The translations under genes were made by a program, and so were the position numbers. DNA of 33,068 bases, taken from Desulfitibacter sp. BRH_c19 (GTDB lineage Bacteria; Bacillota; DSM-16504; Desulfitibacterales; Desulfitibacteraceae). The stretch lies in the NCBI GenBank assembly GCA_001515945.1, contig LOER01000035.1:1-33068 (forward strand), given 5' to 3'. The notes under the pieces were generated by a model that had not been told where the DNA came from, did no database searches, and worked only from the letters and a program-made list of their open reading frames with translations. Positions 4,748-13,035 of this stretch are shown here, piece after piece. Every line of letters begins with the position of its first letter. The stretch's first letter is position 1.

Positions 4748-4822
4748 GTCGGCTAAGTCGGAGGGATTACTCCCTCCTTCTCGCCTAAGAACTGTACGTG
4801 TCCCTTTCAAGACATACAGCTC
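4748..4822 (-). ncRNA. Group II intron domains V and VI
   Basis: Domain V is 34 nt (4789-4822) with the expected form: GAGCTGTATG opening strand holding the AGC catalytic triad, a GAAA tetraloop, the AC bulge region and a CGTACAGTTC closing strand. Domain VI follows, with a GGAGGGA/TCCCTCC stem and unpaired A residues before GCC, where the branch-point adenosine would sit. The pairing is exact enough that this piece looks recently active. Confidence 0.85.
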
Positions 4823-4846
4823 AAGCTCTCATTTATCCGTTTATCT

Positions 4847-5527
4847 TTATGATACTTCTGCCAGTCTTAGCTGTCTTAAGGTTTTATACCCTTCTAGTTT
4901 TTGCTGGCTAGTTGGAGGCTCACCTTTTAGCGGAAACATTTTATAATATTGTCTGTTACAATATCCATGTACCAATTGTAAATTATTATATTTCCTTGTT
5001 CCGCCGTGTATAACTGGTATTTTCTCTTGTACTACCAGCCTTTCACTAAAATCTACAATACTCATTTTGCATATAGGGCATTTATATTTCTGCATTTTAG
5101 CCAGTTTCTGCTTGCTTTTAATGCAGTTTCTATCAAATTCCTTTTCATCCCTACGTTCAAAATATTCTTTAAGGCATGCATCGTATGGCGTTGCTCTGAA
5201 TTTAATTAGAACATGCCTGATTATCGGTATCCATGACATTTTAGTCAGTTGTTTATGCTCTTTTGGGTCCGTCAATATCCACCTATCTTTGCTTTGTCCT
5301 GTTATGTCTGGTTTATAGTACCTACCTATTATCCAGGTCTTACTTTTAGTTGGATGCAGATACTTTAGGAACTTAAATGTGCTCTTCCAGACGTGGTGGT
5401 CAATATGTGAATACGTCCGTTTTGCGACAGATGGCGACCAGTAGTTACCTATACCTCTAATTATGGGGTTAAGTTTCTCTATTACTGCATTGACGTTGTT
5501 GCCTTTCAGCTTCTGTACAAAAAGGGC
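4847..5527 (-). pseudogene. ltrA: Group II intron-encoded reverse transcriptase/maturase, C-terminal fragment
   Basis: Open from just after an in-frame stop near 5529 to the stop at 4847. Reading into it gives NNVNAVIEKLNPIIRGIGNY and YSHIDHHVWKSTFKFLKYLH, which match the maturase (X) domain. The C-terminal HNH endonuclease domain follows, with KCPICKMS and VHGYCNRQYY as its zinc-binding cysteine and histidine motifs. The whole palm and finger region with the YADD active site is missing, so the product cannot reverse transcribe. A TTG at 5275 gives a shorter apparent frame, but homology clearly continues upstream of it. Confidence 0.85.
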
Positions 5528-6348: not shown

Positions 6349-7461
6349 TCAACGAGATGGAAACCTGTGATAGTGTTTTTCTTTCTTTTTTTGATACATA
6401 TTTATATCTGCAACATGGAGCAAGTCGCTTAGATTGTTTCCATCTGACGGAAATAAAGAATATCCCAAGCTCAAACCACGAAATGCTACGCCGGATTTCT
6501 TTTCCACAAATTCCAATTCTTCTATTTTACAGCAAAAGGAAGCAAGCTCATTACCCTCATATATAATAATAAATTCATCACCCGACATCCTATAAAAATT
6601 ATCTATCTTAAATGTTCTCTTTATTGTATTTACAAACTCAATAATATAGCAATCTCCTACTACATGCCCGAAACTATCATTAATACTCTTAAAGTCGTCC
6701 AGGTCAATAAAGATAATAGCAAAAGAAATACTATTATCTATTTTGTTAAGAGTATCCTCATACAATCCTTCACGGTTTCTTAATTTAGTAAGTGTGTCAA
6801 TCTTTACTCTTTCTCTCAGTATTTTTGCTGTCTCATTGACAGATATTAGCGAAAAAAATAGTTTATAGGATAAGGTAACATTGCATACTAAGAAAAGGAT
6901 TATTAATAATTCCAATGCGAAAGAAGTGCCTGCTACAAAGGTATAATTGATTAATATAATAAGAAAAAACCATAATAAACTTAGACCTAAAATAGTATCT
7001 ATTGTTTTATTATCCAGATTTTTAAGAATATAAGTGAGTTTTTCCCTTACAGATTTGAGAAAATAGGGGAGAGTAATTATATAGATAATAGTCTGAGTAA
7101 GAAATACAGATAAGCTCATCCAGTCCAGTTGCAAAAAATATCCTACACGAACAGATAAGGAAAAGGTAAGCATTGTATAGATCCAAGATGAACACATAAT
7201 TAAGATCGTATATTTTATAGACTGATCATATAAATATTTTAAAGGGATTATATATAAAAAGCCGGTTATCATAAACAAACCGCTTCCAAGTCCAGGGTTA
7301 GGTATTATATTTTGTATAGGACGCATAAAAGCAATAAAAATGAACGTGAAAATAACAAAAACTGTCCACGTAACCAAGGGTGAGTATTTCTTTTTCGAAC
7401 ACATATATGAGGTATAAATATTAACAAATAGCATTTGTAGGGCAATTAAAGTGTTGAACAT
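6349..7461 (-). CDS. Membrane-bound GGDEF-domain protein (putative diguanylate cyclase)
   Basis: About 370 residues. The N-terminal 200 residues form six or seven hydrophobic helices, a membrane sensor module without a named domain. The C-terminal third is a GGDEF domain: DTLTKLRNREGLYED, then FIDLDDFKSINDSFGHVVGD, then the active-site signature RMSGDEF and a final LGYSLFPSDG. The signature is SGDEF, which active cyclases tolerate. The product would make c-di-GMP from two GTP at the membrane. The allosteric RxxD site appears broken: the position four residues before the Asp is Phe (FKID). The start at 7461 is preferred because GGGGGA lies about 7 nt upstream; the ATG at 7476 has no Shine-Dalgarno. 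The nearby EAL gene makes the opposing enzyme. Confidence 0.85.
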   Translation of the reverse strand: MFNTLIALQMLFVNIYTSYMCSKKKYSPLVTWTVFVIFTFIFIAFMRPIQNIIPNPGLGSGLFMITGFLYIIPLKYLYDQSIKYTILIMCSSWIYTMLTFSLSVRVGYFLQLDWMSLSVFLTQTIIYIITLPYFLKSVREKLTYILKNLDNKTIDTILGLSLLWFFLIILINYTFVAGTSFALELLIILFLVCNVTLSYKLFFSLISVNETAKILRERVKIDTLTKLRNREGLYEDTLNKIDNSISFAIIFIDLDDFKSINDSFGHVVGDCYIIEFVNTIKRTFKIDNFYRMSGDEFIIIYEGNELASFCCKIEELEFVEKKSGVAFRGLSLGYSLFPSDGNNLSDLLHVADINMYQKKKEKHYHRFPSR

Positions 7462-7543
7462 AAGATTGTCCCCCATAGGATTTATGCTTATCCGCCTGCA
7501 TTAATAAATAGAACTAATGTTGTTAGAAACGGTAGTCTATAGC

Positions 7544-8059: not shown

Positions 8060-8755
8060 TTAAAACATTTTATCTAGATCAATGGTTGGTTTGCCTAAAT
8101 AAAATCCTTGTGCATATGACACTTCTAAATCTTGAACTGTTTGAAGTTCTCTGCTGTTTTCAATGTTTTCAGCAATTACTGTACTTCCTATATCTTTACC
8201 AATTGCTACAAGGTGTCTAATTACAGAACGTTTAGTTGTACTCTGATCGCAGCCTCTAACTATTGGGCCATCTAATTTAATAAAATCTGGCGTGGAATTG
8301 ATTACCAAATGAATCCTATTATAGCCAGTAGCAATATCATCAATTGAATACCTGTAGCCCCATTTTCGTAGTTCCTTCAAAATTTTAAGGAAGCATTCCA
8401 TGTCTACAATCTCCTCTACTTCCGTTATCTCTAGAACTACCTTATCTTTTGGTATATTCCTCTTAAACCAATTTGTGTGGTTTTTGAATAATAGTATTAA
8501 TGTCGAAGGCCTAATATTCATAAAGAGTATACCACTAATTCTTGCTATATTTGAGATTGAGCTATTTATGCATTTAATATCGAATTCTACTGTTTTCCCT
8601 TCTTTTTCTGCTGTAGTAAATAGTTCTCCTGGTGAGAGACCTGTATGAGATCTAATCAAAGCTTCATACCCCATAATTTTCATATTATCTAAGGAATAAA
8701 TGGGTTGATAAGCTGAATAAACAAGCATATTTACTGAACGTGATAGAAATAACAT
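8060..8755 (-). CDS. EAL-domain c-di-GMP phosphodiesterase (stand-alone domain)
   Basis: A 231-residue protein that is essentially one EAL domain. The catalytic landmarks are all present: YEALIRS (the EAL), LFMNIRPS (metal-ligand Asn), VVLEITE (Glu), SIDDIATGYN (the Asp pair and loop 6), DFIKLDG (catalytic Lys), VIAENIE (Glu) and YAQGFYLGKP (Gln). Loop 6 is IATGYN rather than FGTGYS, a mild change. It probably opens c-di-GMP to pGpG in the cytoplasm. AGGGGAAAA precedes the ATG. Upstream on the same strand are a 45-codon ORF and a c-di-GMP-I riboswitch with terminator, so expression is likely set by its own substrate. Confidence 0.88.
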   Translation of the reverse strand: MLFLSRSVNMLVYSAYQPIYSLDNMKIMGYEALIRSHTGLSPGELFTTAEKEGKTVEFDIKCINSSISNIARISGILFMNIRPSTLILLFKNHTNWFKRNIPKDKVVLEITEVEEIVDMECFLKILKELRKWGYRYSIDDIATGYNRIHLVINSTPDFIKLDGPIVRGCDQSTTKRSVIRHLVAIGKDIGSTVIAENIENSRELQTVQDLEVSYAQGFYLGKPTIDLDKMF

Positions 8756-9070: not shown

Positions 9071-9112
9071 AATAAAAACATAGAGCTGGCAACATATCCA
9101 ACCCTATGTTTT
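9071..9112 (-). terminator. Riboswitch expression-platform terminator
   Basis: A 9-bp stem AAAACATAG/CTATGTTTT (9104-9112 with 9075-9083) plus an inner TGG/CCA pairing, followed on the minus strand by TTTTATTATT. The GGGTTGG inside its 5' arm can also pair with the CCAACC at the 3' end of the aptamer, which would give a mutually exclusive switch. Confidence 0.75.
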
Positions 9113-9130
9113 CATATTTAAACAAAATAA

Positions 9131-9225
9131 TGGTTGGTAGCCTGGCGATCATAGCTGCACTTAACAGTTTTAGACCCATAGCTTTGCAGTCACTATCTTT
9201 CAATAGTTTTGCCTTTTTCAACTGT
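9131..9225 (-). promoter_or_regulatory. Cyclic di-GMP-I (GEMM-I) riboswitch aptamer
   Basis: On the minus strand the conserved core is readable in order: AGGCAAAA, an ACTATT-GAAA-GATAGT hairpin with GNRA tetraloop, GTGACTGCAAAGC, then ATGGGTCTAA (tetraloop receptor side), then CAGCTATGATCGCCAGG and CTACCAACC closing the aptamer. This order and spacing are those of the c-di-GMP-I class. It is followed by an intrinsic terminator at 9071-9112 and then the small ORF and the EAL gene. The pairing between CCAACC and GGGTTGG suggests that ligand binding favours the terminator (off switch), but this is inference. Confidence 0.88.
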
Positions 9226-11662: not shown

Positions 11663-12307
11663 TTATGCTTCCCTCTTCTCAAGGTATCTTTCTAGCTTCC
11701 TTTTAACCCTTTGAAGGGCATTGTCGATGGACTTAACATGTCTTTTTAATTCAAATGCTATTTCTTGATAGGATTTGCCTTCTAAATATGACATTAAAAC
11801 CTTCCACTCAAGAGAACTTAATATTTCACCCATTTTTTCTTCAATATCACCAAATTCTTCTTGGCTAATAATTAATTCTTCTGGATCAGTAATTTTTGAG
11901 CCAGAAATAACGTCTAATAATGTTCTATCTGAATCTTCATCATAAATGGGCTTGTTAAGGGATACATAAGAATTAAGAGGAATGTGTTTCTGTCTTGTGG
12001 CAGTTTTAATAGCTGTGATAATTTGCCTGGTAATGCACAGTTCAGCAAAAGCTCTGAATGAAGAGAGCTTATCGCATCGAAAATCTCTAATAGCTTTGTA
12101 AAGACCAATCATGCCTTCTTGAATAATGTCTTCTCTGTCTGCTCCGATTAGAAAATACGACCTTGCTTTAGCTCTAACAAAATTTTTGTATTTAGTGATT
12201 AAATACTCCTGAGCTGCATCGTCTCCTGCCTGGGCAATTTCCACAATGTCTTCATCAACCAAAACTTCGTAGCTATGATAAATATTGCTTTGAGCATTTA
12301 CACTCAT
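11663..12307 (-). CDS. sigH: RNA polymerase sigma-H factor (stationary phase/sporulation)
   Basis: A 214-residue sigma-70 family factor. Region 2 is clear (YKNFVRAKARSYFLIGADRE, then DIIQEGMIGLYKAIRDF and SSFRAFAELCITRQIITAIK). Region 4 has EWKVLMSYLEGKSYQEIAFE and HVKSIDNALQRVKRKLERYL. The family and length match Spo0H/SigH, which directs early sporulation and transition-state genes and, in other Firmicutes, competence. The Shine-Dalgarno GGTGGAGG lies 7 nt from the ATG. It is the last protein gene of the conserved rlmB-rae1-sigH block. It has its own promoter and a structured leader with a terminator (12308-12508), suggesting attenuation control. Confidence 0.95.
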   Translation of the reverse strand: MSVNAQSNIYHSYEVLVDEDIVEIAQAGDDAAQEYLITKYKNFVRAKARSYFLIGADREDIIQEGMIGLYKAIRDFRCDKLSSFRAFAELCITRQIITAIKTATRQKHIPLNSYVSLNKPIYDEDSDRTLLDVISGSKITDPEELIISQEEFGDIEEKMGEILSSLEWKVLMSYLEGKSYQEIAFELKRHVKSIDNALQRVKRKLERYLEKREA

Positions 12308-12479
12308 GGCATCGCCTCCACCTGAAGTTTAAATAAAAAGGTATTTCTATGATAAATACCTTGAAAGTATATTTATTTATAAATACCCTCATCACAACTA
12401 TACGCAAGTCTTGTACACAACTTGCCTAAAACTTTACGGAGGCAAACAAATTAATTAGTTTGTCCATCTCACCGCCATA
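12308..12479 (-). promoter_or_regulatory. Structured sigH leader, candidate transcription attenuator
   Basis: Between the sigH promoter and gene lies about 170 nt of leader with three hairpins on the minus strand: GGACAAAC...GTTTGCC (12441-12465), GCAAGT...ACTTGC (12404-12425), and an intrinsic terminator (12333-12362) only about 25 nt before the ATG. A second GGGTATTT (about 12381-12388) can pair with the AAATACC arm of the terminator, giving an alternative fold. It matches no riboswitch class I know. Confidence 0.55.
12333..12362 (-). terminator. Intrinsic terminator inside the sigH leader
   Basis: A 9-bp perfect stem AAGGTATTT/AAATACCTT (12354-12362 with 12338-12346) followed on the minus strand by TTTATTT. 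It is downstream of the sigH promoter and upstream of its Shine-Dalgarno, so sigH mRNA must pass through it. Confidence 0.75.
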
Positions 12480-12508
12480 ATTATACATTAAAATGTGCAT
12501 GAAATCAA
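12480..12508 (-). promoter_or_regulatory. Sigma-A-type promoter of sigH
   Basis: Minus-strand TTGATT (12503-12508) and TATAAT (12480-12485) with a 17-bp spacer, just after the rae1 stop codon. Confidence 0.75.
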
Positions 12509-12519
12509 CTTTATTTTGC

Positions 12520-13035
12520 CTAAGGTTGTCTTCGGCGCCACTCTTCTAGCTTTTTTTTAACTTGATCCTGGAGGCGATCTTCAATTGATTTTACATTTAT
12601 ATCACTATTTTTAGTTTTTTCACTAACTATTTCTTCTGCTGCTGCCAGCCTATATAGTAACTCCCTAGAGGTCATCCTTAAAGCACCTTTGCCCATGATA
12701 ATCCTCTGCTCGTTCCAATCATTGGTTACAACTGTTATACTACTTCTTGCTGGGAGTTCTCCGATCATTCTTTCAATTAATGTGTCCGCTGTTTCCCCTG
12801 CTTTAGTATAAACAACCTGCACTTTACCTTGACTAGAGACATTCCTCATTTTTGCCTTTGACAAATAGGCATCATAAACAACAATTACATTTATATCCTG
12901 AGTTCCCTGATAGTTCTGTAACATCTCAACCAGTTTATCCCTAGCCATTTCTAAATTATCATTCTTAAGATTGATTAAGATAGGCCAGTTGTTTATAACA
13001 TTATAGCCATCTACTATTAGATACTCCACCAACAT
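12520..13035 (-). CDS. rae1: NYN-domain ribosome-dependent mRNA endonuclease (YacP/Rae1)
   Basis: A 171-residue NYN (PIN-like) nuclease. The acidic active-site motifs are visible: LIVDGYNVIN near residue 8, VVYDAYLSK near 52, AGETADTLIERM near 80 and VVTNDWNEQR near 104. The length and motifs match Bacillus YacP, named Rae1, which cleaves specific mRNAs in the ribosomal A site. The C-terminus is a basic, coiled-coil-like tail (QDQVKKKLEEWRRRQ). The gene lies 27 bp after rlmB in the conserved rlmB-rae1-sigH order and is probably co-transcribed with it. The start at ATG 13035 fits family length. Confidence 0.88.
   Translation of the reverse strand: MLVEYLIVDGYNVINNWPILINLKNDNLEMARDKLVEMLQNYQGTQDINVIVVYDAYLSKAKMRNVSSQGKVQVVYTKAGETADTLIERMIGELPARSSITVVTNDWNEQRIIMGKGALRMTSRELLYRLAAAEEIVSEKTKNSDINVKSIEDRLQDQVKKKLEEWRRRQP

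Follow-up and report, generated by a model that had tools for sequence, protein, structure and literature searches.

We consider it moderately probable that sigH of Desulfitibacter sp. BRH_c19 is controlled at the level of translation by sequestration of its Shine-Dalgarno (SD) sequence, possibly with some weak transcription attenuation in this genus. The gene encodes the sporulation and transition-state sigma factor SigH, which gates entry into sporulation. When analyzing the window (the whole stretch of 33,068 nucleotides examined here), we found that the untranslated leader of sigH carries, near its 5' end, the hexamer GCCTCC, which matches the SD GGAGGC base for base as its complement, and, still closer to the predicted transcript start, a second hexamer, GGACAA. 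Neither had been mentioned in the first-pass annotation of this DNA. Comparison with other sigH loci supports a conserved, structured, sigH-specific leader with a promoter of its own, the elements of which are collected in Table 1.

Table 1 Features of the sigH locus and its leader in the window (positions on the whole stretch)
Feature	Position	Strand	Basis
sigH, sporulation/transition-state sigma factor	11663-12307	-	NCBIfam TIGR02859/NF006148
sigH SD GGAGGC, predicted to pair with 12443-12438	12314-12319	-	low predicted accessibility; opening cost
AAACUU, 3' partner of AAGUUU	12325-12330	-	predicted fold
Terminator-like hairpin AAGGUAUUU/AAAUACCUU with U-rich tail	12331-12362	-	dG -6.7 kcal/mol; P = 0.14; conserved in genus
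GGGUAUUU, competitor for the terminator 3' arm	12381-12388	-	conserved in congener
Hairpin GCAAGUU/GACUUGC inside the long-range loop	12404-12425	-	identical in congener
AAGUUU, inner half of the long-range helix, pairing with AAACUU 12330-12325	12429-12434	-	predicted fold; retained in L003
Anti-SD GCCUCC	12438-12443	-	37/180 leaders; only with SD GGAGGC; genome-wide mainly sigH
Alternative 5' hairpin AUGGACAAAC / GUUUG-CC-UCCGU, holding the anti-SD before the SD is transcribed	12436-12467	-	stepwise folding; same in congener L002/L003
GGACAA, about 8-13 nt after the predicted start	12460-12465	-	76/180 leaders
Sigma-A type promoter TTGATT-17-TATAAT, directly after rae1	12480-12508	-	near-consensus counterparts at other sigH loci
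rae1/yacP (YacP/Rae1 NYN protein), upstream neighbour of sigH	12520-13035	-	

The promoter with a 17-bp spacer described earlier directly after rae1 is indeed present, and the transcript is predicted to start near 12473 (minus strand), which gives a leader of about 165-170 nt from the predicted start to the gene. Matches of this kind numbered 5 against 5.5 expected by chance in 2 kb; a near-consensus promoter lies at the same place in nearly all of about 190 sigH loci from other genomes, and the first-pass annotation had named relatives devoid of promoter and hairpins alike as evidence against its attenuator. From the -10 element to the ATG, the leader of the window is 92% identical to that of the congener L003 (161/175 columns), compared with 74.5% for rae1 DNA, 90% for sigH DNA and 83% for the promoter. 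Since the untranslated leader is more conserved than the neighbouring coding DNA, a function along its whole length, and not in the promoter alone, is indicated. The leader together with the start of sigH also folds better than its shuffled versions (z = -2.5, with 4 of 200 shuffles equally good), and the several hairpins that had been noticed between promoter and gene were recovered. No Rfam family reached its gathering score within the leader, and no conserved ligand-binding aptamer was found: outside the genus just GGACAA and GCCUCC recur, in flanks of near-zero information.

To judge the anti-SD, the leaders of relatives were compared with dinucleotide shuffles. GCCTCC is present in 37 of the 180 leaders, against 2.4 expected, and usually follows GGACAA at a distance of no more than about 30 nt. 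A tally from genome handles places it upstream of sigH genes from at least 16 GTDB families; most of the sigH leaders examined lack it. Of the 92 leaders with the SD GGAGGC, 37 contain it, compared with 0 of about 64 with another classified SD, a contrast that is partly confounded by phylogeny. The relatives' leaders are not independent of each other, and the shuffles ignore kinship. One leader, L035, has the SD GGGGAC and a matching GTCTCC, that is, a double change. When 11 genomes were searched throughout for GCCTCC-N90-120-GGAGGCGAT ahead of a start codon, 6 of the 7 matches were at sigH, and the reversed control gave 0; in Moorella-type genomes the corresponding short-leader pattern matched sigH in 8 of 8 and few other places.

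Folding predictions point in the same direction. In the window, the predicted accessibility of the SD is 0.001, compared with 0.34 after shuffling of the upstream leader, and the cost of opening it is 6.2 kcal/mol (8.4 kcal/mol in the congener). Ranked for SD accessibility against shuffles of the same leader, 17 of 37 GCCTCC leaders fell in the lowest decile (3.7 expected), as did 24 of the 123 leaders outside this set (12.3 expected). In the sister family represented by L007, GCCTCC has been lost and the SD is predicted to be more open (accessibility 0.30). Covariation across relatives, a check that the first-pass annotation had proposed, was at null level in the bases flanking the anti-SD core, none of which exceeded shuffled partners, and the 6-bp core itself is invariant across the GCCTCC set. 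For this reason the anti-SD/SD helix is deduced from complementarity, co-occurrence, enrichment and folding. Different geometries were seen in some other leaders. In L130 and L259 the anti-SD CCUCC occupies the 7-nt loop of a hairpin, and its contact with the SD would then be of the loop-to-SD (pseudoknot) type. In L074 and L079 (Desulforudis-type), GAGCCTC, located shortly after the start of the sigH coding sequence, may be the partner of the SD instead.

The second hexamer, GGACAA, was found within 30 nt after the -10 element in 76 of 180 leaders, with 1.1 expected from dinucleotide shuffles, and 75 occurrences fall into a single 10-nt bin, +10 to +19 after the -10. This tight placement near the start would also be expected if the leader hairpins were incidental and a DNA-binding protein at GGACAA controlled the sigH promoter, and the reverse sequence TTGTCC, looked for as a sign of an operator, is mildly present near some sigH promoters; in B. 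subtilis, moreover, AbrB represses sigH (PMC9931155). Such promoter control nevertheless seems quite unlikely to us, because conservation extends through the leader (92%) beyond the promoter (83%), TATAAT-GGACAA is not enriched genome-wide in 10 genomes, as a regulon or general promoter motif would be, and GCCTCC would be left unexplained.

As an RNA element, GGACAA has no conserved pairing partner among sigH leaders. When the window transcript was folded stepwise, the anti-SD was predicted to be held first in the alternative 5' hairpin and to shift to the SD once this was transcribed, and the congener behaved likewise. A general role of GGACAA as partner of the anti-SD was rejected, since their pairing was at null level over 30 leaders from other families; the 5' hairpin switch may therefore hold for this genus only. 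We also considered a leader peptide (AUGGACAAA...) that would control sigH through coupled translation across the anti-SD, given that a 13-codon open reading frame (ATGGACAAACTAATTAATTTGTTTGCCTCC...) spans the anti-SD in the window. This frame is not conserved, being shifted in the congener by a deletion of 4 nt, and T precedes GGACAA in just 52% of 61 non-redundant leaders; we discarded the peptide as a most improbable explanation.

The first-pass annotation had interpreted this region as the layout of a riboswitch or protein-controlled attenuator, with a perfect 9-bp terminator about 25 nt before sigH. Of this interpretation, a conserved, structured leader with its own promoter is supported; the intrinsic terminator as its business end found little support, and the element with the wider backing is the one that would act at the ribosome-binding site. 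The hairpin AAGGTATTT-ATCATAG-AAATACCTT at 12362-12338, is indeed present, its tail TTTATTT lies 24-30 nt upstream of the sigH ATG (12307), and its 9-bp stem is perfect. However, the stem contains 2 G-C pairs, two of its pairs lie inside the U tract, its dG is -6.7 kcal/mol, and when the leader is dinucleotide-shuffled, about 1 shuffle in 7 attains the same terminator score (P = 0.14). Higher-scoring terminator-like sites on the minus strand of the window mostly have a dG of -10 to -18 kcal/mol. Conservation of the stem in aligned relatives was confirmed within the genus, where a single stem change keeps the pair (A-U to G-U), but goes no further, as L007 of the sister family has a hairpin without a U tract at the same place.

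The proposal that an extra GGGTATTT at 12388-12381 can compete for the terminator arm AAATACC was corroborated by a mutually exclusive antiterminator fold, which is predicted in the window and kept in the congener. In the window, the terminator and antiterminator forms hardly differ in energy (-32.3 and -32.9 kcal/mol), compared with -32.2 and -35.9 kcal/mol in the congener, and at the decision point their predicted probabilities are 0.71 and 0.29 in the window versus 0.01 and 0.97 in the congener. A transcription attenuator in which the hairpin terminates unless GGGUAUUU captures its 3' arm would account for the retention of both forms, and strong terminator-like hairpins do exist in other sigH lineages. 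Yet the hairpin here is weaker than most other terminator-like sites of the window, the congener strongly disfavours the terminator form, and the sister family lacks the U tract, so we regard attenuation as the main control of this sigH as unlikely. Given the weak stem, its isoenergetic competitor and the tail-less hairpin of L007, attenuation in this genus is possible, and it is just as conceivable that the hairpin serves as a structural branch within the long-range fold.

Alternatively, the hairpin could simply mark the end of the rlmB-rae1 transcript, with sigH transcription passing passively through it; it is the sole terminator-like site detected in the rae1-sigH spacer. In most relatives that share this gene order a terminator is missing there, and the whole leader is conserved, both of which make this explanation very unlikely.

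Terminator-like hairpins were also surveyed in the leaders of other sigH genes. As a general feature they were rejected, with 48 found compared with 40 in one shuffle set. Chance was exceeded by the strongest hairpins only: those with a score of at least 25 were present in 13 sigH leaders against 3.6 expected, mainly in Desulfotomaculum-type and G014-type families. Given these strong hairpins, the attenuator idea may apply better to some other sigH lineages than to the present one. Terminator-like hairpins between promoter and sigH were observed in L091, L096, L101 and L106 (Sporomusa-type), in L040 and L044-L047 (Desulfotomaculum-type), in L157 and in L006/L120/L131; they are candidate real attenuators, an example being GCACTAA..TTTAGTGC followed by U-rich sequence.

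Elsewhere in the window, a c-di-GMP-I riboswitch (71 bits) was identified at 9133-9223 (minus strand), upstream of and on the same strand as an EAL phosphodiesterase gene (8060-8755), with a good terminator-like hairpin nearby that ends at 9078; a GGDEF cyclase gene (6349-7476) lies further on from the EAL gene. A Group II intron domain match at 4748-4824 (minus strand) adjoins an open reading frame with an HNH endonuclease domain (4847-5275, minus strand), possibly an intron remnant.

Taking SD sequestration as the preferred reading, the following mechanism can be proposed. Transcription would start about 165 nt upstream of sigH and yield a leader that acts in cis on translation. In the OFF state, GCCUCC near the 5' end would pair with the SD GGAGGC, aided in this genus by AAGUUU/AAACUU, so that the long-range helix would close around two or three hairpins and ribosomes could not load. 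In the ON state, UGGACAAAC would retain the anti-SD in the 5' hairpin, either before the SD is made or when this hairpin is stabilised, and the SD would be free. Temperature, a protein, an sRNA, a metabolite or ribosome supply are candidate signals that might shift the balance. The sequences themselves show the promoter, the conservation of the leader, the excess of the anti-SD and its joint occurrence with the matching SD, and the specificity for sigH. Occlusion of the SD and the alternative 5' hairpin are predictions from RNA folding; that the pairing lowers sigH translation, and that it is regulated, we infer.

Sequestration of the ribosome-binding site of a sigH gene has a precedent. In Staphylococcus aureus, the 5' UTR of sigH contains an inverted repeat that traps the ribosome-binding site and so represses SigH translation (PLoS Pathog 2012, PMC3486894). 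Both cases share a sigma-H gene, a 5' UTR structure that sequesters the ribosome-binding site, and translational repression, the last two being predictions here. In S. aureus, however, a perfect 13-base inverted repeat lies locally beside the start codon, while the present leader has a 6-bp anti-SD near the 5' end of the transcript, at a distance of about 120 nt (in the Moorella-type leaders, about 35 nt), together with the conserved GGACAA; as modelled, it would thus represent a long-range, conserved variant of a known principle. For B. subtilis spo0H, Healy et al. (1991; cited in PMC3426417) reported post-transcriptional control, a likeness in that sigma-H is controlled after transcription, as far as the cited title indicates. 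Translational riboswitches and RNA thermometers resemble the leader in the mutual exclusivity of anti-SD and SD and, in this genus, in the alternative anti-SD hairpin, but differ from it in that neither a conserved aptamer nor an Rfam match was found here. Terminator-type attenuators share the order of promoter, leader, terminator and gene as well as the competing strand, but the terminator here is weak and restricted to the genus. A search of the open literature, with most subscription journals outside its scope, found no papers on this sigH leader RNA or on any in Clostridia.

In a bolder and much more tentative reading, which we put forward with low confidence, GGACAA and GCCUCC would together define an undescribed class of cis-regulatory RNA leaders dedicated to sigH in many families of spore-forming Bacillota. 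A signal sensed at the 5' end (a protein, an sRNA or a metabolite) would decide whether the SD is covered, and lineages would swap SD sequestration for terminators as the output. The 6-nt anti-SD, present in at least 16 families, offers a concrete target for mutation in genera that can be cultured, among them Moorella with its leader of just about 75 nt, and the step from a starvation signal to SigH production would become directly testable outside Bacillus.
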